Shown: piece after piece, positions 1 to 17,257 of the stretch
Layout: each line of letters starts with the position of its first letter
Numbering within the stretch: position 1 is the stretch's first letter
Source: Candidatus Accumulibacter conexus
GTDB taxonomy: Bacteria; Pseudomonadota; Gammaproteobacteria; Burkholderiales; Rhodocyclaceae
Length of the DNA stretch: 64,000 nt
Direction of reading: 5' to 3'
Assembly: GCA_017592775.1 (NCBI GenBank)
Contig: JAGFNJ010000024.1
Span: forward strand, 1 to 64,000
The notes under the pieces: model-generated
Database searches by the model: none
The model's input: the letters and a program-made list of their open reading frames with translations, nothing else
What the model was told of the DNA's origin: nothing
Translations under genes and position numbers: made by a program

Positions 1-2
1 TC

Positions 3-305
3 AAGTTCGTCGCCAGCCCGCGCCACGCCGACATGCTGCTGGTCACCGGACCGGTTTCGCGGAACATGGAAGAGGCCCTGCGCCGAACCTACGAGGCCAC
101 GCCGGCGCCCAAGCTGGTGGTTGCGGTTGGCGATTGCGGTTGTGACGGCGGGCTCTTCGGCGCGAGCTACGCGAGCTGCGGGCGCGTCGCCAACGTCATT
201 CCGGTCGACTTCGCCGTGGCCGGTTGCCCACCACCACCGATCGAGATCCTGCGCGGGATTCTGGCGGCGGTGCGACGATGTCGAACCTCGCGAGGATCGA
301 GATGA
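3..305 (+). CDS. NuoB/HyfI-like [4Fe-4S] subunit, 3' fragment
   Basis: C-terminal 100 residues of a 20-kDa iron-sulphur subunit of the complex I / group 4 [NiFe]-hydrogenase superfamily; the 5' end lies outside the window and the frame is open to its edge. Two of the cysteines that normally bind the N2-type cluster are visible, in VGDCGCDGG and GCPPPP. The GCPPPP form instead of NuoB's GCPPRPE, and the text around FGASYASC and VIPVDFAVAGC, fit HycG/HyfI/MbhJ-type hydrogenase-like subunits better than housekeeping NuoB. This protein normally sits in the hydrophilic arm next to the large catalytic subunit. The gene is convergent with the modC end of the large operon, so it is not cotranscribed with it. 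Family assignment is good; hydrogenase versus other oxidoreductase is open. Confidence 0.75.
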   Translation, partial: KFVASPRHADMLLVTGPVSRNMEEALRRTYEATPAPKLVVAVGDCGCDGGLFGASYASCGRVANVIPVDFAVAGCPPPPIEILRGILAAVRRCRTSRGSR

Positions 306-600
306 CTTGGCCGATCCCGACGAGGGACACTGCCCGCATCGGGAAAGCCCCCCGGGCTCTGCCGGGGGGATGGTTGCCTTTTGGAGTCCTTGTTCGTAGG
401 TTCGATGATGTTTTCTCAGAAAGAATTTGCCTTCGCCAAGATGTGCGCGGTGGACAGCCTCCAGTTGAGGCTTGCCAAGCGCAAGCCCTGGCCGGTCAGG
501 CAAGAAGATCAACGCTGCAGAGCCCTCCATCGGGCGCGTCGCGACGGATCTCCGACATCTCTTCCCCGTAACGGAATGCTTTGTCCGGGCACGGTACCGC
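306..600. other. gap with no supported gene
   Basis: This 295-bp stretch separates two convergent transcription units and holds a strong hairpin at 348-369. From about 370 to 600 the base composition is less GC-rich than the flanks and no reading frame looks coding; the overlapping short frames disagree and match nothing recognisable. It may include a decayed mobile-element end, but no transposase or inverted terminal pair is visible. Confidence 0.5.
348..369. terminator. GC-rich hairpin between convergent genes
   Basis: Perfect 8-bp stem CCCCCCGG / CCGGGGGG with the 6-nt loop GCTCTG, lying 43 bp after the stop of the hydrogenase-like gene. The + strand continues with a short T run (CCTTTT) about 10 nt later, so it is not a canonical intrinsic terminator. 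Its place between convergent genes makes a terminator role plausible; it could also be a repeat-element end. Confidence 0.4.
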
Positions 601-1737
601 TCATGGGGAGTGCCCCTTGCCGGACGTTCCCGCCTGCCCGGCAATCGCCACATCGCCGGGCAGCAGGCGGATCGCCGACTTCTGCAGTTGCAGCGGCACA
701 CTGGCGCCGGGGACGATTCCCCGCCGCTGCGCGACGGCGGCGCCGATGGCGAAGTTCAATGTCGCCTCGCGGCGGCCGTCGACGCGGGCGCTGACGGTGG
801 CGTGTCCGCGCCAGGCGAGGCGCTCGCTGACGACCGCGGTGACGGTGTTCTCGCGTTCGCTCTGATGCTCGCGGACGAGGATCACTGCCGCCTCGGGGAC
901 CAGCCAGGAGACCGTCTCGCCGACTGCGAAAGCAGGCTGATGCGACGCCAGCAACGGCCGCCCGAGCCACTCGATGCGCGTCGTGTCGGCCGCCGGCAGA
1001 TGCTGCAGCACCTTGCCCTCGAACAGGTTCGGCTGGTCGGTGAGGCGGGCGACGAGGGCGCTTGCCGGCTGCGCCAGCATCGCCTCGGGGGTGGCGGTCT
1101 GCAGCGTGCGGCCATGGTGCAGGACCGTCATGCGGTCGGCGAGCAGGCTGGCCTCTTCGAGGTCGTGCGTCACGAGGACGATCGGGATCGCCAGCGAGCG
1201 CCGCAGGTCGATGAGCTGGCGCAGCAGCTTGCGCCGCGTCACTTGGTCGACCGCCGAAAAGGGTTCGTCGAGCAGCAGCACCTGCGGCTCGCGCGCCAGC
1301 GCGCGGGCGAGGGCGACGCGCTGCTGCTGGCCGCCGGAAAGTTCGGCCGGGCGGCGGTCGTCGAAGCCGTCGAGATTGCAGCGCGCCAGCCAGTGGCGGG
1401 CGCGTGCCGCACGTTGTGCCGGCGGCAGATGGCCGATCGCCTGCACGACATTGGCGAGCGCGCTCAGGTGCGGGAAGAGCGCGTAATGCTGGAAGACGAA
1501 ACCGACGCGGCGCTGCTGTGGCGGGACGTCGATGCCGCGGGCGGCGTCGAACCAGGTCTCGTCGGCGCAGCGGACGTGGCCGGCTGCCGGCCGGTGCAGG
1601 CCGGCGAGGCAGCGCAGGATCGTCGATTTGCCGCTGCCGGAGGGACCGACGAGCGCCAGCAGTTCGCCGCTCGCGCAGGCGATTTCGGCGGCGAGCGGGA
1701 TCGGCGCCGTCTGCTCGAGGCGGGCGCTGAGCGTCAT
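601..1737 (-). CDS. modC: Molybdate ABC transporter ATP-binding protein ModC
   Basis: 378-aa ABC ATPase that energises molybdate import from the cytoplasmic face. Visible motifs are Walker A GPSGSGKST, the Q-loop in FVFQHYALFP, signature LSGGQQQRVALARAL, Walker B VLLLDEPF and switch VTHDLEEA. A C-terminal MOP/TOBE-type oxyanion-sensing domain follows (about residues 290-370), as in ModC. The start is the ATG at 1737, chosen because it overlaps the modB stop as ATGA; an open frame continues further upstream but only as a shadow of modB. It is the last of ten closely packed genes. Sulfate/thiosulfate CysA is the nearest alternative, but the ModA and ModB neighbours settle it. Confidence 0.9.
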   Translation of the reverse strand: MTLSARLEQTAPIPLAAEIACASGELLALVGPSGSGKSTILRCLAGLHRPAAGHVRCADETWFDAARGIDVPPQQRRVGFVFQHYALFPHLSALANVVQAIGHLPPAQRAARARHWLARCNLDGFDDRRPAELSGGQQQRVALARALAREPQVLLLDEPFSAVDQVTRRKLLRQLIDLRRSLAIPIVLVTHDLEEASLLADRMTVLHHGRTLQTATPEAMLAQPASALVARLTDQPNLFEGKVLQHLPAADTTRIEWLGRPLLASHQPAFAVGETVSWLVPEAAVILVREHQSERENTVTAVVSERLAWRGHATVSARVDGRREATLNFAIGAAVAQRRGIVPGASVPLQLQKSAIRLLPGDVAIAGQAGTSGKGHSP

Positions 1738-2396
1738 CGCCGCAGCACCGACCGGCCCAGCCGGCTGACGACGATCACGGCGACGAAGGACAGCGCCAGC
1801 AGCAGTGCCGACATCCCCGCCGCCGCCGCATCGTTGAACGCCTGCGCCTGATCGTAGATGGCGATGGCGATGGTCCTCGTCTCGCCCGGCAGGCTGCCGC
1901 CGACCATCAGCACGACGCCGAACTCGCCGAGGGTGTGGGCGAAGCTCAGCGCCAGCGCGGCGGCCATTCCTGGCCAGGCGAGCGGCAGCTCGATGCGCAG
2001 GAAGGTCTGCCAGCGCGACAGGCCGGAAACCCACGCCGCCTCGCGCAGCTCGCGCGGAATCGCCGCGAAGCTGCGCTGCATCGGTTGCACGGCGAATGGC
2101 AGGTTGACGATCAGCGAGGCGACGAGCAGGCCGTCGAAGCTGAAGACCAGTTGGCGGCCGGTCAGCGCGTGGTAGGCCTGGCCGAGCGGCGAGGCGCCGC
2201 CGAGGCCGAGCAGCAGGTAGTAGCCGAGGACCGTCGGTGGCAGCACCAGCGGCAGCAGGATCGCCGCTTCGAGCACCGCGCGGCCGCGCCAGGCCGACCA
2301 CGCCAGCAGGCGTGCCAGCCAGGCGGCCGGCGGCAGCAGCAGCAGCGAGGTGGCTGCGGCGAGTTGCAGCGACAGCGAGAGCGCCTGCCAGTCCAT
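1734..2396 (-). CDS. modB: Molybdate ABC transporter permease ModB
   Basis: 220-aa inner-membrane permease, the usual ModB length, with about five or six transmembrane segments. The cytoplasmic EAA-type loop that docks ModC is visible as ELREAAWVSGLSRWQTFLRI (about residues 137-156). HTLGEFGVVLMVGG near residue 175 is typical of the molybdate/sulfate permease family. It passes molybdate delivered by periplasmic ModA to the cytosol. The gene starts 6 nt after the modA stop and its stop overlaps the modC start, so the three genes should be translated together. Tungstate is a possible alternative substrate. Confidence 0.92.
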   Translation of the reverse strand: MDWQALSLSLQLAAATSLLLLPPAAWLARLLAWSAWRGRAVLEAAILLPLVLPPTVLGYYLLLGLGGASPLGQAYHALTGRQLVFSFDGLLVASLIVNLPFAVQPMQRSFAAIPRELREAAWVSGLSRWQTFLRIELPLAWPGMAAALALSFAHTLGEFGVVLMVGGSLPGETRTIAIAIYDQAQAFNDAAAAGMSALLLALSFVAVIVVSRLGRSVLRR

Positions 2397-2402
2397 TGTC
2401 GC

Positions 2403-3179
2403 TCAGTCGTCCGGCAGCGCGAAACCATGGCGCTCGAAGACGGCGCGCGCCGACGGTTGCTGCAGGTAGTCGTAGAAGCGCCGTGCCTCGGCCCCGGCGC
2501 GCTGCGTCAGCGCCATCCGCTGCCGCAGCGGCGGATGCCAGTCGGCGGGAATGAGCGCTGCCACGCTGCGTCTGGCCAGTTCCGGAGAACGAGCCAGCGA
2601 CCAGGCGACGATGCCGCCCTGTGCCGAGCCGCTGAGCGCGAACTGCGCCGCCTGCGCGACGTTCTCGCCGAACACCAGCCTGCCCTGCAACGGTTGCCAG
2701 AGACCCGCCCGTTCGAGGGCGGCGCGGGCGGCGCGGCCGTAGGGCGCATGCTCCGGGTTGGCGATCGCCAGCCGCTGCAGCTTGCCGGTGGCGAGCGCGC
2801 CGGCCAGCCCGCGCAGCTCGCCATCGGCCGCCACCGGCGATCCCCGCGGCAGCAGCAGCGCCAGGCGGCCGATCGCGTAGAGCCTGCCCTCGTCGCGCAG
2901 CAGCCGCTGGCGGGCGAGCTGGAAGATGTATTCCTCGTCGGCCGAGAGGAAGAGTTCGTAGGGCGCGCCCTGCGGGATCTGCCGCGCGAAGTGGCCCGAG
3001 GAACCGAAGGCGAGGACGACGTGGCCGCCATGCTCGCGCTCGAAGTTGGCGGCGATCTCGCTCAGGGCGAACTTGAGGTCGGCGGCGGCGGCGACGCTGG
3101 CCGCTGCCGCGCTGCCGGACAGCAGCAGCAGGCAAAATAGCAGAAGGCGCAGCAGGTTGCCGGACATCGCCTGCCTCAT
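2403..3179 (-). CDS. modA: Molybdate-binding periplasmic protein ModA
   Basis: 258-aa periplasmic solute-binding protein. An N-terminal signal peptide (LLRLLLFCLLLLSGSAAAA) is followed by the ModA core: AAADLKFAL, FGSSGHFARQI, APYELFLSAD, and PEHAPYGRAA, whose small polar residues contact the oxyanion in known ModA structures. The C-terminal end has the usual fold-closing segment around ARRFYDYLQQ. The start at 3179 is preferred because its ATG overlaps the upstream TGA as ATGA; an ATG 12 nt later would also fit. It captures molybdate or tungstate for ModBC. Its place behind two dehydrogenase-like genes and a Dab module, rather than beside molybdenum-cofactor genes, is unusual. Confidence 0.9.
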   Translation of the reverse strand: MRQAMSGNLLRLLLFCLLLLSGSAAAASVAAAADLKFALSEIAANFEREHGGHVVLAFGSSGHFARQIPQGAPYELFLSADEEYIFQLARQRLLRDEGRLYAIGRLALLLPRGSPVAADGELRGLAGALATGKLQRLAIANPEHAPYGRAARAALERAGLWQPLQGRLVFGENVAQAAQFALSGSAQGGIVAWSLARSPELARRSVAALIPADWHPPLRQRMALTQRAGAEARRFYDYLQQPSARAVFERHGFALPDD

Positions 3180-4132
3180 GCCACCCGGTTCTGCGGCTCG
3201 CCGCGGGCGAAAGCCTCGAGGTTGGTGGTGAGCTGGTCGGCGAGTGCCTGCATCGCCGGTTGGCTGGCCCAGGCGACGTGCGGCGTCAGCAGGAAGTTCG
3301 GCAGTGCCAGCAGTTCCGCCGTCAGCAGCGGGTTGCCGGCGGTGGGCGGCTCGACGCTGAGGACATCGAAGCCGGCACCGGCGATGTCGCCCTGGCGCAG
3401 CGCGGCGAGCAGCGCCGCCTCGTCGACCAGGCCGCCGCGCGCGGTGTTGAGCAGCAGCGCCGAGCGTTTCATCGCCTGCAGCTCGTCGGCGCCGATCAGG
3501 TTGCGCGTTCCGGCGCTCAGCGGGCAGTGGAGCGAGATCACGTCCGCCTCGCGCAGGACCTGCGCGAACGGCGTGTAGCCCGGCCGCAGCGTCGCTGCGC
3601 CCTTGCGCTCGCTGCGCAGCACGCGCATGCCGAAAGCCTCGGCAAGGCGGGCGACGCCGCTGCCGAGGCTGCCGCTGCCGATGATCGCCAGCGTCGCACC
3701 AAAGAGGTCGCGAATCGGATGGTCGAAGAAGCAGAACTGCTCGGCGCGCTGCCATCTGCCGGCGGCGACGGACTGCCGGTAGGCGACGAGGTTGCGCGAC
3801 AGCGCCAGCAGCAGCGCGAAGACATGCTCGGGAACCGTATGCACGGCATAGCCGCGGATGTTCGTGACGACGATGCCGCGCGCCCGACAGGCGTCGAGGT
3901 CCACGTTGTTGGTGCCGGTGGCGGCGACGGCGATCATCTGCAGTGCCGGCAGCGCGGCGATCAGTCCGGCGTCGAGCTGCAGCTTGTTGACGATGGCGAT
4001 GGTGGCGTCCGCCAGTCGTTCGCCGACCTCTGCCTGCTGCGTGCAGGGATGCTCCAGCCAGTGATGCGGGAACGCCGGCCGGCGGACATCGGCGACGATC
4101 GACTCGCGCTCGAGATAGACGATGCGGTGCAT
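3176..4132 (-). CDS. D-2-hydroxyacid dehydrogenase (hydroxypyruvate/glycerate type)
   Basis: 318-aa cytosolic NAD(P)-dependent 2-hydroxyacid dehydrogenase. The N-terminal catalytic half is followed by a Rossmann NAD domain with GSGSLGSG at 152-159. The catalytic triad of the family is complete: Arg232 in NTARGG, Glu261 in FDVLSVEPP and His285 in TPHVAW. The HVAW context resembles the HprA/glycerate dehydrogenase branch, so hydroxypyruvate or glyoxylate reduction is likely, but substrate cannot be fixed from sequence. It starts 3 nt after the ALDH-like gene and its stop overlaps the modA start. If the operon handles inorganic carbon, a role in 2-phosphoglycolate or glyoxylate metabolism is conceivable; that is inference. 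Confidence 0.88.
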   Translation of the reverse strand: MHRIVYLERESIVADVRRPAFPHHWLEHPCTQQAEVGERLADATIAIVNKLQLDAGLIAALPALQMIAVAATGTNNVDLDACRARGIVVTNIRGYAVHTVPEHVFALLLALSRNLVAYRQSVAAGRWQRAEQFCFFDHPIRDLFGATLAIIGSGSLGSGVARLAEAFGMRVLRSERKGAATLRPGYTPFAQVLREADVISLHCPLSAGTRNLIGADELQAMKRSALLLNTARGGLVDEAALLAALRQGDIAGAGFDVLSVEPPTAGNPLLTAELLALPNFLLTPHVAWASQPAMQALADQLTTNLEAFARGEPQNRVA

Positions 4133-4135
4133 GGC

Positions 4136-4840
4136 TCAGTCCGCGAGCTGCCGGCCGTGGCGGCCGGCGACCTCGGCGACCCGCTTCGCCAGTTCCGGTT
4201 CGCCGGCAAACAGCAGCCGGCCGAGCGCGGGGGCGGCACAAAGACCTTCGATCGCCTCCAGGTCGCCGTGCAGGACGTTGAAGGCGCCAGCCGGAAAGCC
4301 GCTCTGCGCCATCAGCTCGGCCAGCGCGACGGCGGCCGACGGGGCTTTCGGACTTGGTTTGGCGACCACCGTCGAGCCAGCCAGCAGCGTCGGAACCGCT
4401 CGCTGCAGCAGGCCCGCCAGCGGCGCCCGGTCGTCGCAGACGATGGCGACGACGCCGCCGTCGCTGGCCACCGCCGCTTCGTCGGCGGCGTTGCGCAGCA
4501 GACGCAGCGCCGCCTCCACCTCGGCTGCGGCGGTAGCGTCTTCCTGGCCGCTCTCTTCGGCGATCAGGCCGGCAAAATGGCTGCCGTAGCCCGCCAGCGC
4601 ATCGGCCAGTGTCGCCAGCAGGCGCGCGCGCTCACCCACGGCGAGCGACCGCCACGCCGGCAACGCCGCGGCGGCGGCGTCGACCGCGGTCGACGCCTGG
4701 CTGGCGCCGCACAGCGGCGTCCGCCGCCGAATCAGGCCGCTGCGCGCGTCGCGGACGTCGAAAAACGCCGGCGCCATGGTCAGGAAGGCATGGCCGTTGA
4801 TCCACAACGGAACGGCCAGGATGTCGTCGGTGTCTTTCAT
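4136..4840 (-). CDS. Half-length aldehyde dehydrogenase-like protein lacking the catalytic domain
   Basis: 234-aa protein matching only the N-terminal, NAD-binding half of the aldehyde dehydrogenase superfamily (usual length about 480 aa). Recognisable are the N-terminal WINGHAF segment and the cofactor region VAKPSPKAPSAAVALAEL...SGFPAGAFNVLHGD. The catalytic cysteine loop (GQxC) and the general-base glutamate (ELGG) are missing, and the reading frame ends cleanly 3 nt before the next gene start. It therefore cannot be a standard aldehyde dehydrogenase. It may be a regulatory or structural dinucleotide-binding protein, or a truncation that has become fixed. Coding is supported by tight operon packing; function is unknown. 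Confidence 0.7.
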   Translation of the reverse strand: MKDTDDILAVPLWINGHAFLTMAPAFFDVRDARSGLIRRRTPLCGASQASTAVDAAAAALPAWRSLAVGERARLLATLADALAGYGSHFAGLIAEESGQEDATAAAEVEAALRLLRNAADEAAVASDGGVVAIVCDDRAPLAGLLQRAVPTLLAGSTVVAKPSPKAPSAAVALAELMAQSGFPAGAFNVLHGDLEAIEGLCAAPALGRLLFAGEPELAKRVAEVAGRHGRQLAD

Positions 4841-4896
4841 CAGGTTCCTCGCAAAGAGATCGGTGGCGTGGCTGTCGCGCGTCGGGAAACTGCGGC

Positions 4897-6393
4897 TCAG
4901 AGCCCGGCAAGTGCCGCCACCCAGGCCTCGGCGGCTGGTCGCAGCAGCTCGAGGAGCGGCATCGGGTACACGCCGATGCCGAGGATCAGCGTCGCCGGCA
5001 CGAGCAGCAGCGCCATCTCGCGCGGCAGCAGATCGTCGGCGGCCGCCACTTCCGGTCCGTTCGCCGGCCCGAAGAAAGCCTGCCGGAACGGCGACAGGAA
5101 AGCAGCGGCGGCGAGCACCATGCCGAACAGCGCAGCGAGGCCGGCGCCGGTGTGGTCATGCAGCGCAGCGACGATGATCAGCAGCTCGCCCGGGAAGCCG
5201 CTGGTCCCCGGCAGGCCGATGCCGGCGAGGCCGAAGAGCAGGAAGAAGGCGCCGAGTCGGGGCATGCTGCGCAGGGCGCCGCCGAGTTGCGCGACGTCGG
5301 TCGAGCCCGTCCGCCGCTGCAGGAACGACAGGACCAGGAAGGCGCCGCCACCGGCGAGGCTGAAGTTGAGCAACTGCAGCAGGACCCCCTGCAGTCCGTA
5401 CACCGAGAACGACGCCAGGCCGAGCAGCACCAGACCGACGTGGGCCAGACTCGAGTAGGCCAGCATGCCGCGCAGATTGCTGTGCACCAGCGCGGCGACA
5501 CCGCCATAGAGGATCGCCACGGTGCCGAATCCGGCGAGCAACCAGTGCAGGTCGCGGGCGGCGATCGGCGCCAGCGGGATCGCCAGGCGGATCAGGCCGT
5601 AGGCGCCGAGTTTCAGTCCGACGAGGACGGCGGTCACCGCCACCGGCGCGCTGATCGCCAGCGGTGGCAGCCAGGTGTGCAGCGGCACCAGTGGCACCTT
5701 GGCGCCCAAGCCGAGCAGCAGGAGCAGGAAGACGAGGTACTGTCGCTGTTCCGACAGCGGCCTGGCGAGCAGCGTCGGTAGGTCGAACACCGGGGCAGCG
5801 TCGCCGGCGGGCGGGAAGGCGAGTGCCAGGAAGCCGAAGAGCAGCGGCACCCCACCCGCCAGCATGACGAGGAAATAGCGGACGGCGGCGCTCTGGCGGC
5901 CCGTGCCGATGCCCCACTGGCTGACGAGGAAGTAGAGCGGCGGCAGGGTGAACTCCCAGCAGAAGAAGAACAGGATCGTGTCGAGGGCACAGAAGACGCC
6001 GAGGGTCGCCGCTTCGAGGAGCAGCAGCATGGCGAAGTGGAAGCCCGGCGAGAGTGGCGACGCGGCGGCAGTCACCCGCCAGCCGGCGACGATCGCGCCA
6101 CAGAAGAGCAGCGCCGTTGCTGGCAGGAAGAGGAGCGACAGCCCGTCGACGCCGACCCGGTAGGCGATGCCGAGGTCGGCGATCCAGTCGACCGATTCGC
6201 ACAACTGGAAGTCGGGATCGGCACGATCGAAGACGCCGACGATCAGCAGCGAACAGAGCAGCGTCAGCAGGCTGCTGACGAAAGCGATGTGCTGCGCCAG
6301 CGGCGCCCGCCGCAGCAGTGCGCAGCCCAGCGCGCCGAGCAGCGGCAGCGCCAGCAGGGTGCTCAACAGCGGCCAGTGGGCGATCTCATTCAT
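4897..6393 (-). CDS. NuoM/MrpD-like proton-translocating membrane subunit (copy A)
   Basis: 498-aa polytopic membrane protein of the complex I / Mrp antiporter family, with about 14 helices. Residues needed for ion movement in NuoM are present: the TM5 glutamate in FFFCWEFTLPPLYFL, the TM7 lysine in LGAKVPLVPLHTWLP, the TM8 lysine in LVGLKLGAYGLIR and a TM12 glutamate in GLPGTSGFPGELLI. The start is taken at the ATG at 6393, which overlaps the previous stop by a few bases; an in-frame upstream start would add 12 residues. No nuo genes for the peripheral arm are in the operon, so it is a standalone antiporter-like subunit, probably partnering the DabA/DabB proteins encoded upstream. Confidence 0.85.
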   Translation of the reverse strand: MNEIAHWPLLSTLLALPLLGALGCALLRRAPLAQHIAFVSSLLTLLCSLLIVGVFDRADPDFQLCESVDWIADLGIAYRVGVDGLSLLFLPATALLFCGAIVAGWRVTAAASPLSPGFHFAMLLLLEAATLGVFCALDTILFFFCWEFTLPPLYFLVSQWGIGTGRQSAAVRYFLVMLAGGVPLLFGFLALAFPPAGDAAPVFDLPTLLARPLSEQRQYLVFLLLLLGLGAKVPLVPLHTWLPPLAISAPVAVTAVLVGLKLGAYGLIRLAIPLAPIAARDLHWLLAGFGTVAILYGGVAALVHSNLRGMLAYSSLAHVGLVLLGLASFSVYGLQGVLLQLLNFSLAGGGAFLVLSFLQRRTGSTDVAQLGGALRSMPRLGAFFLLFGLAGIGLPGTSGFPGELLIIVAALHDHTGAGLAALFGMVLAAAAFLSPFRQAFFGPANGPEVAAADDLLPREMALLLVPATLILGIGVYPMPLLELLRPAAEAWVAALAGL

Positions 6394-7888
6394 GCCGGAC
6401 GAAGTACTCTGCCAGTGCCGCGGTCGCACTGTCGGTCAGTTCGAGCCATGGTTGCGGATAGAAGCCGGCGGCGAGCAGCACGAGGAGCGTGGCGCCGCCA
6501 ACGAAGTACTCCATGCGGCTGGTGCGGGCGATGCGCGCCGCCGGCAGGTCGCGCGGCCGCGGCGCGAGGAAGGCGCGCTGGAAGGCCCAGAGCAGGAAGC
6601 CGGCGGCGGCGACGTTGCCGAGCGCCGTGGCGATCGTCGGCAGGGCGCCGAAGGTCTCGATCGATGCCTCGAGCACCAGATGCACGGCATCGAAGCCCGG
6701 TGTTCCCGGCATGCCGAGGATCGCCAGGCCACCGACCAGGAAGGCGACGGTGATGAAGGGGATGCGGTCGAAGAGGCCGCCGAGCCGGGCCAGCTCGGTG
6801 GTGCCGGTGCGGCGGTAGACGTAGCCGATCATCAGCAGCATCAGCGTCACCGCCAGGCCGAAGTTGACCGCCAGCAGCAGTGCGCCCTGCAATCCCGCGG
6901 GGTGCAGCGTGAACAGGCCGATGATGATCAGGCTGGTGTGGCTGACGACGGCAAAGGCCATCAGCCGGCGCAGATTGATCTGGCGAAAGGCGAGGATGGC
7001 GGCGAAGAAGACGCCGACCATGGCGAAGGCGACGACATAGGCCTGCCAGGTCATCACCGCTTCGGCGGTCAGCGGCAGCAGGAAGCGCGCCATGCCGTAG
7101 ATGCCGACCTTGACGCCGAGGAGCAGCACCGGGCCGACGGCGATCAGGCCGTAGCCGGCCGAGTTGGGGAGCCAGCCGTGCAGCGGAAACAGTGGCGTGC
7201 GGATGGCGAGGCCGTAGAACAGCAGGTAGAAGGCCACCGACTGGTACTTGCCGATCTGCGGCGTCTGCAGCAGGTCGAAGAGGTCGAAACTCCAGTGTCC
7301 ACCGAGCACGTCGACGTGGCTCCAGACGAGAACGACCGCACCGGCGACGAACAGGGCGCAGCCGAAGAACTGATACTGCAGGAAGCGCGACAGGGCGAGG
7401 TTCTCCTCGCTGGCCGACGCCCAGCGCCAGAGCAGGTAGGCGACGAGCGCCAGTTGCACCGCCGAGGCAGCGGCAAACCACAGCAGGTTCATCGTCGTCA
7501 GCATCGTCATTTGCGCGCTTTCGATCAGCAGCAGCACGCTGAGCAGGTGCACCGGCGAGATCTGCTGCCGCGCCATGCCGTAGAACGAAAGCAGGACGCC
7601 GAGCAGGGCGGTGAGCAGGATGAACAGCACGCTGATGCCGTCGGCGGCGGCGTGATAGGCCAGCAGGTCGAAGCGCTCGGCGAACTGCATGACGTTGCGC
7701 GAGACGTCGATGCGGGCATGCAGGTCGATGGCGACGACCAGTTCGCCGATCGCGAACAGGCGACCGAGGATCAGCGCCAGATCCTGCTCGCGCATCACCA
7801 GCAGCAGCAGGCCGCCGGCCAGTGGCAGCCATTGCAGCGTCGCCAGCAGCGGGTAGCCGGCCTGCGTCGCCCAGAAGATCTCGCTCAC
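6386..7888 (-). CDS. NuoM/N-like membrane subunit with degenerate ion-path residues (copy B)
   Basis: 500-aa polytopic membrane protein clearly related to NuoM, with the landmark TPLFPLHGWLP helix and LLGVKVGIYGMARF after it. It differs at positions that carry protons in NuoM. The TM5 region reads LLWFAAASAVQLALVAYLL with no glutamate. The TM7 lysine position is arginine (LAIRTPLFPLHGW). The TM12 GxxE position reads GFDAVHLV. Only the TM8 lysine remains. This suggests a structural or regulatory subunit, or a different ion path, rather than a standard antiporter. The start overlaps the DabB-like stop and its own stop overlaps copy A, so stoichiometric translation is likely. Confidence 0.82.
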   Translation of the reverse strand: MSEIFWATQAGYPLLATLQWLPLAGGLLLLVMREQDLALILGRLFAIGELVVAIDLHARIDVSRNVMQFAERFDLLAYHAAADGISVLFILLTALLGVLLSFYGMARQQISPVHLLSVLLLIESAQMTMLTTMNLLWFAAASAVQLALVAYLLWRWASASEENLALSRFLQYQFFGCALFVAGAVVLVWSHVDVLGGHWSFDLFDLLQTPQIGKYQSVAFYLLFYGLAIRTPLFPLHGWLPNSAGYGLIAVGPVLLLGVKVGIYGMARFLLPLTAEAVMTWQAYVVAFAMVGVFFAAILAFRQINLRRLMAFAVVSHTSLIIIGLFTLHPAGLQGALLLAVNFGLAVTLMLLMIGYVYRRTGTTELARLGGLFDRIPFITVAFLVGGLAILGMPGTPGFDAVHLVLEASIETFGALPTIATALGNVAAAGFLLWAFQRAFLAPRPRDLPAARIARTSRMEYFVGGATLLVLLAAGFYPQPWLELTDSATAALAEYFVRHE

Positions 7889-9431
7889 AGGATCACCACG
7901 AAGGTTGCCATGACCATCAGCATCAGGTAGCGCGGCTGCTCGAGCAGTGCTTCGACGGCGTCGGCGTAATGCCCGACCTGCCGCAGATGCCTGCCGAGCG
8001 TGCCGCCGTCACCGAGCAGCAGGCGGTTCTCGAGGGCCTGCAGGCGATTGGCGAAAGCGAACAGTGCGCGGCCGGCCAGGCCGTGGCCGCGAATCAGCTC
8101 GTCGCCGGCAACGCTCGCTGCCGACCGCTCGTCGTCGCGTGGCGCACCGAGCAGCGGATCGATGAAGCGCTCGTCGAGTGCGCGCACGTCCCGGCCGAGC
8201 GCGAGGGTCGGGCGCGTCAGCAGGCTGTTGGCCAGCGGCTCGATCCAGAAGCGCTGCAGGGCGGCCGTGTAACCCCAGCGCCAGTTCGCCAGCCAGCGTG
8301 GCAGCGGTCGCGCCGGTTGCCGCACGAGGTGCATGTAGGCCGGAGCGAGCAGGAACTGGTAGGCGCGCCAGCAGGCGTGCAGCCCGGCGTGGCAGGCCGC
8401 CAGCCAGAACAGTCCGAGACCACAGCAGAGGACCATCAGACCGACCTGGGTGACGGTTGCGAACACCAGCGCCGACTTGACGTCGCTCTGTACCAGCCCG
8501 CAGAGGCTGCCGTAGGCGGCGGTCAGCAGTCCGATCATCGCCAGCAGCGCCATCAGGTCGGGCGCCTGCAGCAACAGGCCCTGCAGCCGGCAGAGGAGGT
8601 AGACCCCGGCATGGACCAGCAGCGAGCCGTAGAAGAGCGCCGATGACGGCGTTGGGCCCTCGAGGGCGCGGCCGATCCACGGCGTGAACGGCAACTGCGC
8701 CGACTTGACCAGCGCCGCGACGACGAAGCCGGCCGCCAGCAGGCGGATGGTGACCTTGCCCATGCTGCCGTCACCGGCCAGCCAGACCCACTCGAGGGTG
8801 CCCACCGACCACACCGCGAGACCGATGCCGAGCATGAAGCCGGCATCGCCGACGCGGTTGGTGATGAAGGCGAAGAGTGCGTTGCGGGTCGCCGGCGGGC
8901 GCTCCCAGGCGTAGCCGATGAGCAGCCACGAGCTGAAACCGGCGAGTTCCCAGCCGACGAAGCAGAGGACCGCATTGCCGGCGAGGACGATCAGCAGCAT
9001 GCCGGCGAGGAACAGGCAGAGGCCGAGGAAGAAGCGCTGGAAGCCGTCTTCCCGGTGCAGGTAGGTGGCCGAGAAGCGGATCGTGATCCAGCTGATCAGC
9101 GTCACCAGCGTCGCCGCCGGCAGGCTGTAGGCGTCGAGGACGAAGGACAGGCGAACCGGCACCGCACCGATGCGCAGCCAGTCGCCGAAGGCGAGATGCG
9201 TCGGCAGCTCGCCGCCGAGGGCGGCGAGATCGAGCAGCACGAGCAGCAGCAGCGCGGCCAGCGCGGCGCCGCCGGCGATGCCGGCGGTGAGTGGCTCGCC
9301 GGCATCGCCGCCGCCGCGGCGCAGCAGCAGCCGCAGGGTGAGCAGCAGCGCCGCCAGCAGGGGCAGCAGCGGCACCAGCCAGAGGACGTCGCTGACCGCG
9401 GCGAGGGGCGCGAAGATGGTGGCGAAGGGGC

Positions 9432-9435
<4 letters not shown>
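7885..9435 (-). CDS. dabB: DabB: NuoL-like proton-conducting subunit of an inorganic-carbon transporter
   Basis: 516-aa NuoL/DabB-type membrane protein. NuoL-family marks are FVGWELAGFSSWLLIGYAWE with the conserved TM5 glutamate, KSAQLPFTPWIGRALEGPTPSSAL with the TM7 lysine, and SDVKSALVFATVTQVGLMVL. It lacks the long C-terminal lateral helix of true NuoL, as DabB proteins do. In the known DAB system DabB supplies the proton pathway that drives DabA. The ATG at 9435 overlaps the dabA stop as ATGA, which fixes the start; the longer open frame upstream is a shadow of dabA. Assignment as DabB rests mainly on adjacency to DabA. Confidence 0.85.
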
Positions 9436-12614
<3,179 letters not shown>

Positions 12615-12620
12615 CGTCGG

Positions 12621-14093
12621 TCAGGGGCCAAAACGCGCTGCCAGCCTGGCCAACGACGAGGCCATGAGCTGCAGCAGTGGTTGCGGGTGGAAGCCGATGC
12701 CGATGACGCCTGCCGTCAGCAGCCAGGCCGCCGCACACTCGACGCGACCCAGGTCGGCGAACCAGACAACGCCGGCAGGTGCGGCAGCCATCGCCCGCTC
12801 GGGTCCGGTGGACAGGCAGCGGATCGCCCGCAGGGCACAGGCGGCGGCGACCAGCATCGCTGCCGACAGCAGCAGCAGCCAGCCGCCCCAGCGGCCGTAG
12901 GCACCGACCAGGACCTGCAACTCGGCGACGAAACCGGCGCTGCCCGGCAGGCCGACGGCAGCCAGCAGGGCGAAGACGATGAAGGCGGCGAAGCGCGGCG
13001 CGATCCGGTTCAGCGAGCCGTAGGCGGCGAGGTCGCGGCTGTGCGTCCGCTCGTAGAGCAGACCGATGAGCAGGAAGAGCAGGCCGGCGGTCAGGCCGTG
13101 GGCGACCATCTGGGTGAGCGCGCCGCTGAGGCCGGCCGGGTTGAGGGTGGCAATGCCGAGCAGCACGATGCCCATGTGCGAGATCGACGAGTAGGCGATC
13201 ATCGCCTTCAGGTCGGTCTGCCGCCAGGCGAGGACGGCGCCGTACACCAGGCTGAGGAGCGCCACGCCAGCCAGCCAGTCCTGCAGCGCGAGCGCCGCCG
13301 CGGGCAGGGTGGCGACGGCGCGGATCAGGCCGTAGGCGCCCATCTTGAGCAGGATTCCCGAGAGCAGGATGGAAATCGGACTGGGCGCCTCGACGTGCGC
13401 CAGCGGCAGCCAGCCGTGCAGCGGAACGATCGGCATCTTGACGCCGAAGCCGAGCAGCAGGCCAAGAAACACCAGCACCTGCGTGCGCACCGGCAATTGT
13501 GCGCCACCGGCCGCCATGTCGGCCATCGCGAAGCTGTGGCCGGGGGCGACGTCATAGAGCAGGAGCAGGGCGATCAGCATGAACACCGATCCGCCCAGCG
13601 TGTAGAGGACGAAGTTGAGCGCTGCCCGGTGGCGATTGGCTCCGCCGAGGCGGTCGATGAGGAAGAAGAGAGGGATCAGCGTCAGTTCCCAGCAGACGTA
13701 GAACAGCGACCAGTCGCGGGCGGTGAAGACGATCAGCAGCGCCGTCTCGAGGATCAGGAGGAGCGAGAAGTACAGTTTGGCGCCGCTGCGGATGCTGGTC
13801 GAGGAAAAGATGGCGACGAAGCAGAGCAGCGTCGCGAGCAGGATCATCGGCAGCGAGATGCCGTCGACCCCGAGCGCCAGATGCGAGCCGACGCGCGGAT
13901 TCCATGGCCGGGTCTCGAAGAACTGGATGTCGGCCGTCGTCGCGTCGAAGTTCGTCAGCAGCAGACCGGCGCACAGCACCGTCGCGCCTGCGACGGCGCT
14001 CGCCAGGTGTCGCATCAGGTCGAAGCTGCGATTGGGCAGCAGGGCCACCAGGGCGGCACCGAGCAGCGGCAGCAGCAACAGTGCCTTCAGCAT
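12621..14093 (-). CDS. NuoM/MrpD-like proton-translocating membrane subunit (copy C)
   Basis: 490-aa polytopic protein, first gene of the operon and the most canonical NuoM of the set. Visible are the TM5 glutamate in SLFYVCWELTLIPLFFLI, the TM7 lysine in FGVKMPIVPLHGWLPLAHVEAPSPISI, the TM8 lysine in LLKMGAYGLIR and the TM12 glutamate in GLPGSAGFVAELQVL. It ends 6 nt before dabA. With DabB and copies A and B it makes four antiporter-family subunits beside one DabA, instead of the single DabB of the known two-gene system. The ATG at 14093 has no strong ribosome site; the divergent gene acyP lies 234 bp away. Confidence 0.87.
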   Translation of the reverse strand: MLKALLLLPLLGAALVALLPNRSFDLMRHLASAVAGATVLCAGLLLTNFDATTADIQFFETRPWNPRVGSHLALGVDGISLPMILLATLLCFVAIFSSTSIRSGAKLYFSLLLILETALLIVFTARDWSLFYVCWELTLIPLFFLIDRLGGANRHRAALNFVLYTLGGSVFMLIALLLLYDVAPGHSFAMADMAAGGAQLPVRTQVLVFLGLLLGFGVKMPIVPLHGWLPLAHVEAPSPISILLSGILLKMGAYGLIRAVATLPAAALALQDWLAGVALLSLVYGAVLAWRQTDLKAMIAYSSISHMGIVLLGIATLNPAGLSGALTQMVAHGLTAGLLFLLIGLLYERTHSRDLAAYGSLNRIAPRFAAFIVFALLAAVGLPGSAGFVAELQVLVGAYGRWGGWLLLLSAAMLVAAACALRAIRCLSTGPERAMAAAPAGVVWFADLGRVECAAAWLLTAGVIGIGFHPQPLLQLMASSLARLAARFGP

Positions 14094-14327
14094 GGCCGGG
14101 CCACGGCTGCGCGCAGCGCGGCCGCCCCCCTCGATATTCTTCTCCGCATGCGCTGATTATGCCAGCATTGGTCGCTGCCGCAGCCTGCGGCCGCATTCCG
14201 CCCGCCCTGGAGCCGGCGCGGGTGTGGCGGCTGCGCTGCCTGGGTCTTGATTTTCTCCCTTCCTTCGACGACGATTGTGCCGGCATGAGCTGCCGTCAGG
14301 GCTCTGCCGTGTCGCCGAGGGTTTCAG

Positions 14328-14621
14328 ATGAGTCGAACGATCTGCCGCCAGTTGTCCATCCGGGGCCGTGTCCAGGGCGTCGGCTACCGCTGGTCCCTTT
14401 GTGCCGAGGCGGGTCGCCTGGGCCTCACCGGCTGGGTCCGCAATCGCCGCGATGGCAGCGTCGAAGCACTGGTCAGCGGCCCGGTCGAGGCGGTCGAAGC
14501 GCTGCTGCTGTGGGCGCACCGCGGGCCGTCGATGGCGCGCGTCGACAGCGTCGTCTGCAGCGACGGAAATGCCGCCGAGATCGGGGCACGGAAGGGCTTC
14601 GAGCAGATTGCCACCCGCTGA
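14328..14621 (+). CDS. acyP: Acylphosphatase
   Basis: 97-aa cytosolic acylphosphatase, which hydrolyses carboxyl-phosphate bonds of small acyl phosphates. The substrate loop GRVQGVGYR (13-21) holds the catalytic arginine (Arg21), and [12 protein letters not shown] supplies the catalytic asparagine (Asn39). Length is exactly that of the family. It opens a + strand series divergent from the Dab operon; the 234-bp spacer should hold promoters for both directions, though no convincing -35/-10 pair stands out there. Confidence 0.93.
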
Positions 14622-14719
14622 GCCCGCGTGACGAGCAAGCGCACGACCTCGCCGCTACCACGCAGGGGACGTTCTCACCGCCCTCCGGGGCGTCATTGCC
14701 AACTGGAACTGCTGCCGCG

Positions 14720-15601
14720 ATGAACACACCGCAAGCCGGAATCCTGCTCCCCCTGCCGCCCCGGGCGCGTTACCTGAGCTTCGTGCCCGACGCCGGGGAA
14801 GGCGCTGCCGACTGCCTGCAGGCGCTCGCCAAGGTCGCCGATGGCGAGCGGACGGTCGTCGGCCTTGGCCGCTCGCTGCTGTCGGCGCTGGCGGTCGACA
14901 TCGGCGGCCTGCGGCCTTTCCCCAGCCTGGCAGGAGCTGGAGTCGAACTGCCGGCGACGCCGGCGGCCATCTGGGTCTGGCTGCGTGGTGAGGACCGCGG
15001 CGAACTCCTGCAGCGTGCGCGTCGCATCGAACGGCTCCTGGCACCGGCGTTCCGTCTCGCGGAGACGCTCGATGCCTTCGTGCACGACGGTGGCCGCGAC
15101 CTGAGCGGTTACGAGGATGGCACCGAGAACCCGGTCGGCGATGCGGCGACGGCCGCCGCGATCGTCGGCGCCGAGCGGCCGTCGCTGGCGGGGTCGAGCT
15201 TCGTTGCCGTGCAGCGCTGGCTGCACGATCTCGCCCGTTTCGAGCAGATGCCGCCCGACGATCGCGACCTGTGCATCGGCCGTCGCCGGCGCGACAACGA
15301 GGAGATCGACGATGCCCCGGAGTCGGCGCACGTCAAGCGGACGGCACAGGAGAGTTTCACGCCGCCGGCTTTCGTCCTGCGCCGTTCGATGCCGTGGACC
15401 GAAGGCCCGCGCGGTGGACTGCTGTTCGTTGCCTTCGCGACCTCGTTCGATCCCTTCGAGGCGCAATTGCGGCGAATGGTCGGCATCGAGGACGGCATCG
15501 TCGACGCCCTGTTCCGCTTCACCCGGCCGCAGTCCGGGGCCTATTTCTGGTGCCCGGCAATGCGCGCTGGCCGCCTCGACCTGTCGCCGCTGCGGCTTTA
15601 G
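14720..15601 (+). CDS. Dyp-type haem peroxidase
   Basis: 293-aa dye-decolorising peroxidase of the shorter YfeX-like class. Family residues visible are the distal aspartate in the GxxDG motif (GYEDGTENP, Asp133), a proximal haem-ligand histidine in ESAHVKR (His204) and the distal arginine in VLRRSMPW (Arg221/222). The TGGLLF-equivalent is RGGLLFVAF. No signal peptide, so cytosolic. The ATG at 14720 is preferred because family similarity begins there; the open frame extends far upstream, antisense to copy C and across acyP, and is not coding. It follows acyP by 98 bp. Physiological substrate cannot be inferred. Confidence 0.88.
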   Translation: MNTPQAGILLPLPPRARYLSFVPDAGEGAADCLQALAKVADGERTVVGLGRSLLSALAVDIGGLRPFPSLAGAGVELPATPAAIWVWLRGEDRGELLQRARRIERLLAPAFRLAETLDAFVHDGGRDLSGYEDGTENPVGDAATAAAIVGAERPSLAGSSFVAVQRWLHDLARFEQMPPDDRDLCIGRRRRDNEEIDDAPESAHVKRTAQESFTPPAFVLRRSMPWTEGPRGGLLFVAFATSFDPFEAQLRRMVGIEDGIVDALFRFTRPQSGAYFWCPAMRAGRLDLSPLRL

Positions 15602-15726
15602 CGGCTGTCGTCGGCCGTTGCTCCGCAGCGGGTTTGCCCGGGGTCCGGTTACGGGCGGTTACAAGAGTCCACGAATGATTCCCCGTCGCTGGTCATCCGT
15701 GTCCGCGGTGCAGCGTTATTCGCTTC

Positions 15727-16116
15727 ATGAAAACGACCACTACCGGTATCTCACTGGCGCTGAGCCTGATGCTCGGCTTCTCTTCCACCGCCTTCGCCGA
15801 TCATCGCCACCACCGCGGCGACTACCGCGGCGATTACCGGGGCGATTACCGGGGCGATTACCGGGGTGGGCATTACGGCCCGCGGGCCTATCCTGCGTAC
15901 CGCCATGACCGGCCGTACAAGCAGTCCTGGGTCGGGCCGGCAGCGGCGCTGGCGATTGCCGGTGTCGCCGTCGGTGTGGCTGCCTCGACGTACTACGCGC
16001 CACCGCCGGTCTATGTCGCACCACCGCCGGTCTACGTGCCGCCGCCGCGCCCGGTGTACGTCGTCCCTGCGCCAGTGCCCTATCCGCCGCCGCCGGTCCG
16101 CTACTGGGGCTACTGA
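15727..16116 (+). CDS. Small exported RGDY-repeat / PPPVYV-rich protein
   Basis: 129-aa secreted or membrane-anchored protein with a clean signal peptide (residues 1-24, ending STAFA-DHRHH). Four tandem RGDY units follow, then a basic tyrosine-rich stretch, then a hydrophobic helix around AAALAIAGVAVGVAAS, then PPPVYV repeats to the C terminus. It resembles the loosely defined exported Gly/Pro/Tyr-rich proteins annotated as hypothetical in many betaproteobacteria; an envelope or surface role is likely but unproven. Gene composition and a normal signal peptide support coding. Confidence 0.75.
   Translation: MKTTTTGISLALSLMLGFSSTAFADHRHHRGDYRGDYRGDYRGDYRGGHYGPRAYPAYRHDRPYKQSWVGPAAALAIAGVAVGVAASTYYAPPPVYVAPPPVYVPPPRPVYVVPAPVPYPPPPVRYWGY
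15817..15864 (+). repeat. Four 12-bp tandem repeats encoding RGDY
   Basis: Unit GGCGATTACCGG repeated four times without gaps; units 2-4 are identical and unit 1 differs at two positions (C for T, C for G). In-frame units make the number of RGDY blocks free to change by slippage without breaking the gene. Confidence 0.9.
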
Positions 16117-16205
16117 GCCGGCTGCCCGCCGCTGGCGGCTGCTGGCTGAGCCGATGCCGCTGCTGCGGGCGGCGCAGTCGTCGCCGGTCTGCTGAAGACG
16201 GCGCG

Positions 16206-17108: not shown

Positions 17109-17257
17109 GGGTCAACGGGTCGGCCCGCGAGCCGTGATCGCCGCCGGTGCGACAGGGATGACTCGAGTCTTCCAGTTGACGACGGTTGGACGCAGGTTCC
17201 ATACTCGGCAGGGGTCGAGGTAGGTCGTGTCTTGCACGCATCATGGGAGGGGCAGCC

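Follow-up and report, generated by a model that had tools for sequence, protein, structure and literature searches.

Judged from sequence, five genes in the order M1-DabA-L-Mx-M2, in a 64,000-nt stretch of DNA from Candidatus Accumulibacter conexus (hereafter the window), probably encode a single membrane complex, an expanded DAB1-type system that would accumulate inorganic carbon. This reading is built on gene order and its conservation, on zinc ligands and residue classes, on phylogeny and on missing hydrophobic segments. A larger membrane complex around DabA had been proposed in an earlier note on this DNA, and the proposal gains support from the recurrence of the complete block, from L-Mx pairs in genomes where the block is broken up and from residue signatures.

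Gene organization of the locus

Open reading frame and profile checks identified all ten minus-strand genes, tightly packed and with one 56-bp gap, just as the earlier note had described them (Table 1). Between M1 and M2 a 6-nt spacer is followed by overlaps, and the gap comes after M2; from the aldehyde dehydrogenase (ALDH) half to modC the junctions are a 3-nt spacer, an overlap (or 8 nt), a 6-nt spacer and an overlap. The ATG start of L overlaps the stop codon of DabA as ATGA, and a longer alternative starts with GTG at 9555. The ALDH half covers the N-terminal half of its family profile. The modC-like ABC ATPase is below the cut-offs of TIGR02142 (223 bits; cut-off 285) and TIGR03265 (227 bits; cut-off 458) in a scan that used the longer frame 601–3135, and it is named mod because of its place behind modAB. 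The initial description of a DabB plus three NuoM-like proteins holds in part: there are four PF00361 genes and the NuoM-like trio is present, but the supposed DabB (L) is closer to NuoL by phylogeny, and M1 sits upstream of DabA.

Table 1. Features of the ten-gene region of the window
Feature	Position (nt)	Strand	Basis
M1, NuoM-like antiporter subunit	12621–14093	-	TIGR01972, 450 bits
DabA, extended class, 1060 aa	9432–12614	-	PF10070, 790 bits, E 3e-237, cut-off 25
L, NuoL-derived subunit	7885–9435	-	ATG at 9435
Mx, degenerate NuoM-like subunit	6386–7888	-	Pfam, 110 bits
M2, NuoM-like subunit	4897–6393	-	TIGR01972, 406 bits
56-nt gap, seam between two modules	4841–4896	-	occurrence of the modules apart elsewhere
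Half-length aldehyde dehydrogenase (ALDH half)	4136–4840	-	PF00171, profile positions 14–230 of 461 only
D-2-hydroxyacid dehydrogenase (HADH)	3176–4132	-	PF02826/PF00389
modA, molybdate-binding protein	2403–3179 (or ATG 3167)	-	TIGR01256, 171 bits, cut-off 62.5
modB, molybdate permease	1734–2396	-	TIGR02141, 213 bits, cut-off 182.6
modC-like ABC ATPase	601–1737	-	PF00005

Internal terminators or promoters had been named as what might split the dehydrogenase and mod genes from the dab genes. Terminator-like sites were not above chance (8, compared with 5.6 ± 2.5 in shuffled sequence), and the single sigma-70-like site within positions 1–18000 is on the plus strand; the support that such scans lend to a single transcript is weak. 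None of the ten genes encodes a redox subunit of the NuoB, C, D, E, F, G or I kind, which sets the region apart from complex I and NDH-1. A PF01058 (NuoB-like) fragment lies on the other strand at 3–305, outside the module and at the left edge of the window; at the loci L178 and L187, inspection of the ORFs by eye revealed neither a NuoB-like gene beyond modC nor a conserved link to modABC.

Distribution of the five-gene block

The order M1-DabA-L-Mx-M2 (module 1; 4897–14093, minus strand) recurs in Accumulibacter, Dechloromonas, Methylococcales, Magnetococcales and Rubrobacter. DabA classes were assigned from sequence length, gene order and phylogenetic tree. Among long-DabA loci clear of contig edges, 69 of 82 carry the complete block and 2 more carry it with an additional antiporter-like ORF; it is found at 0/36 short-DabA loci. 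The module DabA is present in 26 of 28 Accumulibacter genomes, and many methane oxidisers are found among the 72 named loci; most of these hosts are not known as classic autotrophs. Our DabA alignment comprised 108 long and 36 short sequences, 20 of the 164 loci being left out as exact duplicates or contig-edge loci. From a list of DabA places 60 were sampled; fragments, four long sequences (G121, G208, G212, G224) and a short one (G426) were left out. Because named loci and those of the G series overlap in genomes, antiporter counts refer to 82 unique sequences, except where 90 are given.

The exceptions to the block are of several kinds. All seven genomes checked in which DabA is separated from L, Mx and M2 carry an L-Mx pair elsewhere, with no DabA before it, and in the two such genomes from the phylum sample (G216 and G220) an M2-type gene lies directly before L. 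The L genes of these broken-up genomes are not part of second complete blocks, with the exception of a single L locus in G470, which has two. Minimal relatives (L092, L097 and L172) have DabA-L-Mx-like genes without M2. M1 is absent too from those whose upstream side is readable, the Planctomycetes loci L092 and L097 and also L093; L172 starts at a contig end. Some function thus does not strictly require M1 and M2, and the core must be capable of something by itself. At four loci (L073, L080, L084 and L102) M1 is found beside DabA without the rest of the block.

Active site and finger of the long DabA class

The DabA of the window is a PF10070 protein with a phmmer match of 222 bits to DabA2 (9rd0_A). 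Column mapping to DabA2 places its zinc site at Cys528, His721 and Cys736, with an Asp530-Arg532 dyad; the DabA2 counterparts (C351, H524 and C539, with D353/R355) are kept in 108/108 long and 36/36 short sequences. A PF10070 score above cut-off, the beta-carbonic-anhydrase-like Cys-His-Cys and Asp-Arg residues and four PF00361 partners place the protein among DAB/DAC systems. The features of the DAB2 type are not found: Glu444 of the finger is replaced by Ser629 and Leu658 by His859, and L, in the place of DabB, has the TM5 Glu and lies downstream of DabA.

Both replacements extend to the whole class, and as each class is one clade, the residue counts do not represent independent events. The Glu444 column holds Glu in 36/36 short and 0/108 long sequences, although the register of the finger is uncertain (of 109 sequences, including a short one, 22 carry a single acidic residue here and 3 carry two). 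Glu444 is essential in the DAB2 proton path (PMC13144422), and in its absence the long DabA would need a different ion path. Position 658 of DabA2, the transition-state position, also served to define the classes, in agreement with the tree; it is His in 108/108 long and Leu in 36/36 short sequences. Beta-carbonic anhydrases carry Gln or His at this position, and in DAB2 the change of Leu658 to Gln, Gly, Ala or Asn leaves in vivo activity unimpaired (PMC13144422), so His859 may mean little.

Signatures of the antiporter-like subunits

L groups with NuoL, apart from DabB, with a support of 1.0. The NuoL residues E144, R175, D178 and K229, which make up interface ion pairs in complex I, are all present in 82/82 L sequences and in 0/35 solo DabB. 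L has the TM5 Glu in all 82 unique orthologues; DAB2 has Ile at the Glu position, and the mutation I151E halves its growth yield (PMC13144422). In 88 of 90 L sequences no strong hydrophobic segment was detected from TM11 to the C-terminus, that is, no segments resembling TM12–15. A C-terminal hydrophobic segment marks 80 of 82 L sequences (two just miss the threshold of 1.3, at 1.28–1.29) versus none of the 35 solo DabB, and the minimal L proteins (L172, L092 and L097) showed none. The L tail matches the stretch of NuoL between TM15 and TM16 weakly (hhalign probability 32%, P 5e-4; 14% against whole NuoL). An assignment of L as an ordinary DabB was rejected by phylogeny, interface residues and hydrophobic segments taken together; its sequence features make L a probable coupling partner of DabA.

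M1 groups with canonical NuoM (support 0.93) and has 14 hydrophobic peaks; its channel residues form a full set, the TM5 Glu, TM7 Lys, TM8 Lys and TM12 Glu being kept in 81–82 of 82 unique orthologues. M2 has the full set as well, with TM5 Glu, TM7 Lys and TM8 Lys in 82/82 and TM12 Glu in 81/82 (one gap). In Mx the set is incomplete: the TM5 Glu is found in 0/82 and the TM12 Glu in 1/82 unique orthologues, Arg replaces the TM7 Lys in 81/82, and the TM8 Lys is kept. Taken together, these residue signatures fit a multi-subunit arm.

Proposed mechanism

In the complex that we infer, DabA would work on the cytoplasmic side, hydrating CO2 to bicarbonate at its beta-carbonic-anhydrase-like zinc site, and would sit on L, a relative of NuoL that appears to have lost the second half-channel and kept the interface ion pairs. 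The DabA finger would be expected to fill the place of the missing TM12–15, and the lateral tail of L to run across the M subunits. L may act mainly as a coupling subunit that passes conformational or electrostatic changes sideways to M1 and M2, by a route that could comprise its TM5 Glu and a lateral-helix-like tail with the C-terminal TM as anchor. The NuoM-type M1 and M2 are the likely ion channels, and Mx could be a non-conducting spacer or linker. Flow of protons (or sodium) down their gradient through M1 and M2 would then make CO2 hydration one-way without electron input, and a stoichiometry of more channels per turnover might allow operation at low proton-motive force. By our own arithmetic, one H+ at 150 mV would permit an accumulation of roughly 350-fold, and two H+ one of roughly 10^5-fold. 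Overall, the membrane arm of complex I would have been re-used around a carbonic anhydrase. It is more tentative, and in our estimate somewhat short of an even chance, that this represents a widespread carbonic-anhydrase class, in which a redox-free complex-I arm drives a DabA with its own proton path dismantled, catalysis and channels reside in separate subunits with sideways coupling as in complex I, and the number of channels works as a gear for low proton-motive force.

Alternative explanations

The earlier note had gone further and raised the idea that all ten genes form one functional unit that combines CO2 hydration with molybdate supply for a Mo/W-dependent CO2 or formate enzyme. The tight spacing in the window, the same gene order in 4 relatives and a formate dehydrogenase alpha gene in the genome speak for such a unit, which is nevertheless very improbable given how the tail behaves elsewhere. 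The tail, ALDH half-HADH-modABC (module 2; 601–4840, minus strand), follows module 1 at 5 of the 19 genus loci that can be read for at least 3 kb beyond M2 and is missing at the other 14, so that the linkage expected among relatives exists in a minority; among the 72 named loci it occurs only at L031, L032 and L034, all from Accumulibacter. The same gene order occurs with no dab gene in the stretch in 8 of the 10 dehydrogenase-containing stretches that were read in other genomes of the genus, 8 of the 10 having been chosen for closely spaced HADH and modA matches. The ALDH half precedes HADH in all ten, and in 8 stretches HADH orthologues of 77% or more adjoin modA without dab genes. In two genomes tail and dab share a contig, with ~108 and ~270 kb between them. 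Nor is a special molybdate supply supported: modA is present in 28/28 genomes of the genus, and the Mo enzymes of the genome itself, NapA and formate dehydrogenase alpha, need molybdate anyway. ALDH-HADH-modABC is a separate module that adjoins the dab block only in one small Accumulibacter branch, and since the two modules occur apart elsewhere, the 56-nt gap marks their seam. The joint ten-gene unit was rejected on linkage, stand-alone tails and genus-wide modA.

Within module 1, DabA, L and Mx alone could form a working DAB1-like unit, with M1 and M2 as a separate antiporter or a regulatory or leak element of the same operon that, for example, exports the proton released by CO2 hydration. 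The minimal loci and the four loci with M1 alone beside DabA favour this division, as does DAB1 itself, which works in E. coli with two PF00361 genes (PMC7714395). We still consider it unlikely: the L-Mx pair is kept in all seven broken-up genomes, with an M2-type gene before L in two of them; the C-terminal TM of L in the expanded class would suit clamping to added subunits; and the second half-channel known from DAB2 is missing both in L and in the DabA finger. Less likely again is a system that serves ion transport, with CO2/HCO3- chemistry or Na+-HCO3- symport used for ion movement or for pH or Na+ homeostasis. Such a role would be in line with the exergonic pump suggested by the COGNAT authors, who proposed that how many ions are pumped might depend on how many membrane subunits there are (PMC5700660), with the Na+/HCO3- symport proposed for MpsAB (PMC13144422) and with the two beta-carbonic anhydrases of the host, which count against our main reading. 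By our own arithmetic, however, the energy of CO2 hydration is too small for pumping several ions; DAB2 is described as sodium-independent and does not rescue a strain deficient in Na+ transporters (PMC13144422), and DAB1 supplies inorganic carbon (PMC7714395).

Implications

How antiporter-like subunits are coupled laterally in complex I has long been a puzzle. If M1-DabA-L-Mx-M2 is indeed one complex, one end of an arm of the same type, with the same interface ion pairs, would host a simple hydration reaction, and coupling could be tested without electron transfer or redox chemistry. The proton path of DAB2 through the finger Glu444, seen in the 2026 structure, would then not be general, as this residue is missing throughout the long class. 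A carbon-supply role would be suggested for a module whose DabA is found in nearly all Accumulibacter genomes and in many methane oxidisers.

Comparison with known systems

Besides the study of Desmarais 2019 there is that of Schmid 2021, which reportedly concerns one to three subunits. Literature searches on multi-NuoM DAB systems found no report of the five-gene anatomy. DAB1 of Halothiobacillus neapolitanus combines DabA1 and DabB1 with an interstitial PF00361 gene, and its active-site Cys is at 462 (PMC7714395); its third gene is elsewhere given as a small hypothetical membrane protein (PMC13144422). DAB1 rescues carbonic-anhydrase-free E. coli; the CCM strain no longer grows in air when DabA1 carries C462A/D464A (PMC7714395). 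The window resembles DAB1 in a PF10070 protein with two PF00361 genes (here L and Mx, which follow DabA), a Cys far from the N-terminus and the presumed role, inorganic carbon supply being known for DAB1 in E. coli (PMC7714395); it differs in the addition of M1 upstream and M2 downstream, giving four PF00361 genes. The Cys is at 466 or 473 in L172 and at 330–369 in 10 of 12 sampled short sequences; its position varies among minimal relatives (404 or 421 in L093, 541 in L092, 518 or 525 in L097). Placing DAB1 in the long class rests on composition, gene order and one Cys position rather than on a DabA1 alignment. Compared with the minimal relatives, L of the window has an extra C-terminal TM.

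DAB2 (DabA2-DabB2; PDB 9rd0, 9rd8 and 9rd9) shares with the window the DabA family, the zinc ligands, the Asp-Arg dyad and a NuoL-like partner. Its single DabB, which is without the TM5 Glu, and its Glu444 finger and Leu658 are missing from the window, where the zinc Cys is at 528 instead of 351 and there are four membrane subunits. MpsAB of Staphylococcus aureus, a DAC homologue, is likened here by description and differs in having two main genes and a proposed Na+/HCO3- symport (PMC13144422). Operons with an extra NuoM were already noted in 2017: in the 'clade C' ybcC operons of COGNAT, ybcC (DabA) precedes a nuoL homologue, NuoM or sulfate-permease genes are often present too, and subunit number was tied to ion number (PMC5700660). 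The catalytic role was unknown then, and the available text of that paper does not contain the five-gene order, the loss of Glu444 or the loss of TM12–15 (PMC5700660).

The closest likeness to the membrane subunits is the arm of complex I: L is nearest to NuoL, M1 is nearest to NuoM, and the interface ion pairs are kept. The module differs from complex I in that it has no redox subunits, L is truncated, Mx is degenerate and the arm would be attached to DabA. In NDH-1MS, a membrane arm of the complex-I type bears the CO2-hydrating subunit, with coupling to ferredoxin oxidation. These cyanobacterial complexes are described as CO2-hydrating (PMC13144422); the module of the window may work similarly, with no redox gene.

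Results

Two modules in the ten-gene run

The window (C20:1-64000 of a 4.87-Mb genome) holds a DabA whose closest named relatives are from Candidatus Accumulibacter. All ten minus-strand genes proposed in the earlier note were recovered by Pfam, NCBIfam and start-codon inspection, with overlaps at DabA-L, L-Mx, Mx-M2 and modB-modC, and the single clear gap remains the 56 nt from M2 to the ALDH half. This gap is the seam between module 1 (M1-DabA-L-Mx-M2; M1, Mx and M2 NuoM-like, L NuoL-like) and module 2 (ALDH half-HADH-modABC; HADH, 2-hydroxyacid dehydrogenase). The module 1 order was found in 21 of 25 loci (24 from the genus plus the window), the remaining four being cut by contig ends. The module 2 tail follows M2 in five genomes and is absent from 14 others with at least 8 kb past M2, and likewise from one further genus locus with 2 kb. 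All 28 genus genomes have modA, and 25 of 28 have HADH of at least 73% identity (two of these genes cut). Ten stretches around HADH were read in other genus genomes; the eight chosen for close HADH and modA matches have the order ALDH half-HADH-modA-modB-modC, the other two have ALDH half-HADH with mod not nearby, and dab-module genes occur in none of the ten. In seven of these ten genomes the dab block was read without the tail (the rest being G004, which is cut, G023, in which no DabA is seen, and G009, whose block lay outside the set of loci read), and in G017 and G019 the module 2 cluster lies ~270 and ~108 kb from dab on the same contig.

Since the tail is absent or apart elsewhere in the genus, module 2 is an independent unit that adjoins module 1 within one small group. 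A single transcript for both is possible in the five linked genomes; the joint function of dab, dehydrogenases and ModABC that had been proposed is unsupported. In the host genome RuBisCO is present once (NF010002, 906 bits) and beta-CA twice, and the six PF00384 matches include NapA, NuoG and a formate dehydrogenase alpha that scores above its cut-off. These explain the needs for bicarbonate and for molybdate separately. The half-length ALDH, kept next to the same HADH across the genus, is for that reason probably functional and not debris. At the other end of the run, the true start of the Dyp-type peroxidase probably lies further in, divergent from M1. The NuoB-type fragment may, as we presume from resemblance, be part of a group-4 hydrogenase-like set.

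Features of the window and of compared loci
Feature	Location	Strand	Observation
Module 1	window 4897-14093	-	M1-DabA-L-Mx-M2
Module 2	window 601-4840	-	ALDH half-HADH-modABC
Half-length ALDH	window 4136-4840	-	N-terminal half only; also at L253-L262; 61-95% identity genus-wide
Dyp-type peroxidase	window 13904-15601	+	open frame overlaps M1 5' end
NuoB/20-kDa-type subunit fragment	window 3-305	+	PF01058, 88 bits; runs off contig end, convergent with modC
M1 of Methylobacter sp. KS41	L060 8481-9956		lacks TM5 Glu and TM12 Glu, unlike the other 81
Fifth antiporter-like gene, Rubrobacter	L089 15634-17217		Lys at TM12 position, Asn at TM8
Large ORF after DabA-L-Mx, Planctomycetes	L092 10000-12671; L097 10326-12431		
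Short second DabA-like fragment	G022 C13:51727-51891		~12 kb from full gene

Two classes of DabA

Of 164 DabA loci read (72 named, 60 from a 398-genome phylum sample, 31 from relatives, and the window), 144 entered the alignment, where DabA forms two clades split at support 1.0. None of the 36 short-class (DabA2-like) loci has the M1-DabA-L-Mx-M2 block. In 31 of them a single PF00361 gene was detected upstream; the profile missed it in the other five, in four of which an ORF on that side was interpreted as DabB. The long class, with an extended DabA like that of the window, comprises 108 loci, 82 of them without a contig edge. Among these 82, 69 have the full block, two the block plus one extra antiporter-like ORF (a split frame in L067), four M1-DabA, three a lone DabA, and four start at DabA with one to three antiporter ORFs. 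Where DabA is alone or with M1 only, a full-length L-type gene of 43-47% identity occurs elsewhere in 7/7 genomes; each of these (L241-L247) has Mx or M2 before or after it, and none is preceded by DabA. In G470 a complete block is present besides the separate L gene. The order is M2-L-Mx at L244 and L245 (G216, G220), a rearranged form of the block in genomes that carry a lone DabA. In G009 (C40), G149, G129 and G082 the DabA match is divided between two frames or contigs, by a break either in the assembly or in the gene itself.

Neither the zinc ligands nor the Asp-Arg dyad of DabA2 vary in either class. Glu444, whose change to Ala or Gln abolishes DAB2 activity in vivo according to PMC13144422, is present in 36/36 short-class and 0/108 long-class sequences, and 84 of the 109 DabA filed as long (one of them a misfiled short sequence) have no acidic residue in the whole finger segment. 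Position 658 is Leu in 36/36 short-class sequences, in agreement with the strict conservation across 150 homologues stated in that paper, and His in 108/108 of the long class; the canonical beta-CA residue is given there as Gln or His. Position 356 is Glu in the long class and Ser in the short, and the conserved N-terminal motif lies a median of 516 versus 300 residues from the zinc Cys.

Membrane subunits of the long class

The best PDB matches of L are NuoL-type chains (174 bits; DabB2, 110), and those of M1, Mx and M2 are NuoM-type. In a FastTree phylogeny of 158 sequences, with canonical NuoL/NuoM labels set by length and position, M1, L, DabB and Mx (support only 0.57) are monophyletic, as is M2 for 25/26; M1 groups with NuoM (0.93), and Mx and M2 are sisters. 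L, previously called DabB, joins NuoL in a group that leaves DabB outside (1.0).

Channel residues were counted in 82 unique sets. The TM5 Glu is found in L (82), M1 (81) and M2 (82), in no Mx and in 0/35 solo DabB (the partner of short DabA); the TM7 Lys in all L, M1 and M2, with Arg in 81 Mx; the TM8 Lys in all M1, Mx and M2, with His in 77 L; and the TM12 Glu in 81 M1, 81 M2 (plus one gap) and one Mx. The NuoL interface set E144, R175, D178 and K229 is complete in 82/82 L and 0/35 DabB. Hydropathy peaks number 14 each in M1, Mx and M2, 16 in NuoL, 13 in DabB and 11 in L. From residue 331 up to its last peak, at 513, L shows none, although TM11 as such stayed below threshold. The L tail matches the region intervening between NuoL TM15 and TM16 weakly; the terminal TM occurs in 80/82 expanded L, 0/3 minimal L checked and 0/35 DabB. 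Judged from its sequence, the fifth gene of L089 may extend the membrane arm further.

Discussion

The simplest account would make M1 and M2 later additions to a DabA-L-Mx core. Ion conduction by M1 and M2, with coupling through L, is what we infer because the core lacks the finger Glu and a second half-channel, whereas M1 and M2 are complete, and because the interface ion pairs persist in L. Against conduction by M1 and M2, however, minimal relatives live without them, so that the core must hold some coupling of its own. In the Planctomycetes locus L092, the ORF after the large one contains a CGHTSCG stretch, which we take to resemble the beta-carbonic anhydrase motif; a natural pairing of both CA kinds is possible there.

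Extra NuoM genes beside ybcC (=dabA) appear in a 2017 report, with the idea that ion number might follow subunit number (PMC5700660), and two- and three-subunit systems are mentioned in the DAB2 structure paper (PMC13144422). The five-gene class, its residue signatures and its NuoL/NuoM origin were not found described in the literature searched, a search with many subscription papers and supplements outside its scope. Module 1 forms a distinct class.

Among systems tested by experiment, the closest to it is probably DAB1 of H. neapolitanus. According to PMC7714395, DAB1 consists of DabA1, DabB1 and an interstitial PF00361 gene, and rescues carbonic-anhydrase-free E. coli, and the C462A/D464A change in DabA1 leaves a reconstituted CCM strain no longer able to grow in air; in PMC13144422 the interstitial product is a small hypothetical membrane protein. 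Supply of bicarbonate by the long class would be the simplest account. Compared by place only, Cys462 of DabA1 lies near the Cys of the long-class locus L172 (466 or 473) and away from that of the short class (330-369 in 10/12 sampled), whereas in other minimal relatives the Cys place differs from that of L172 and DabA1.
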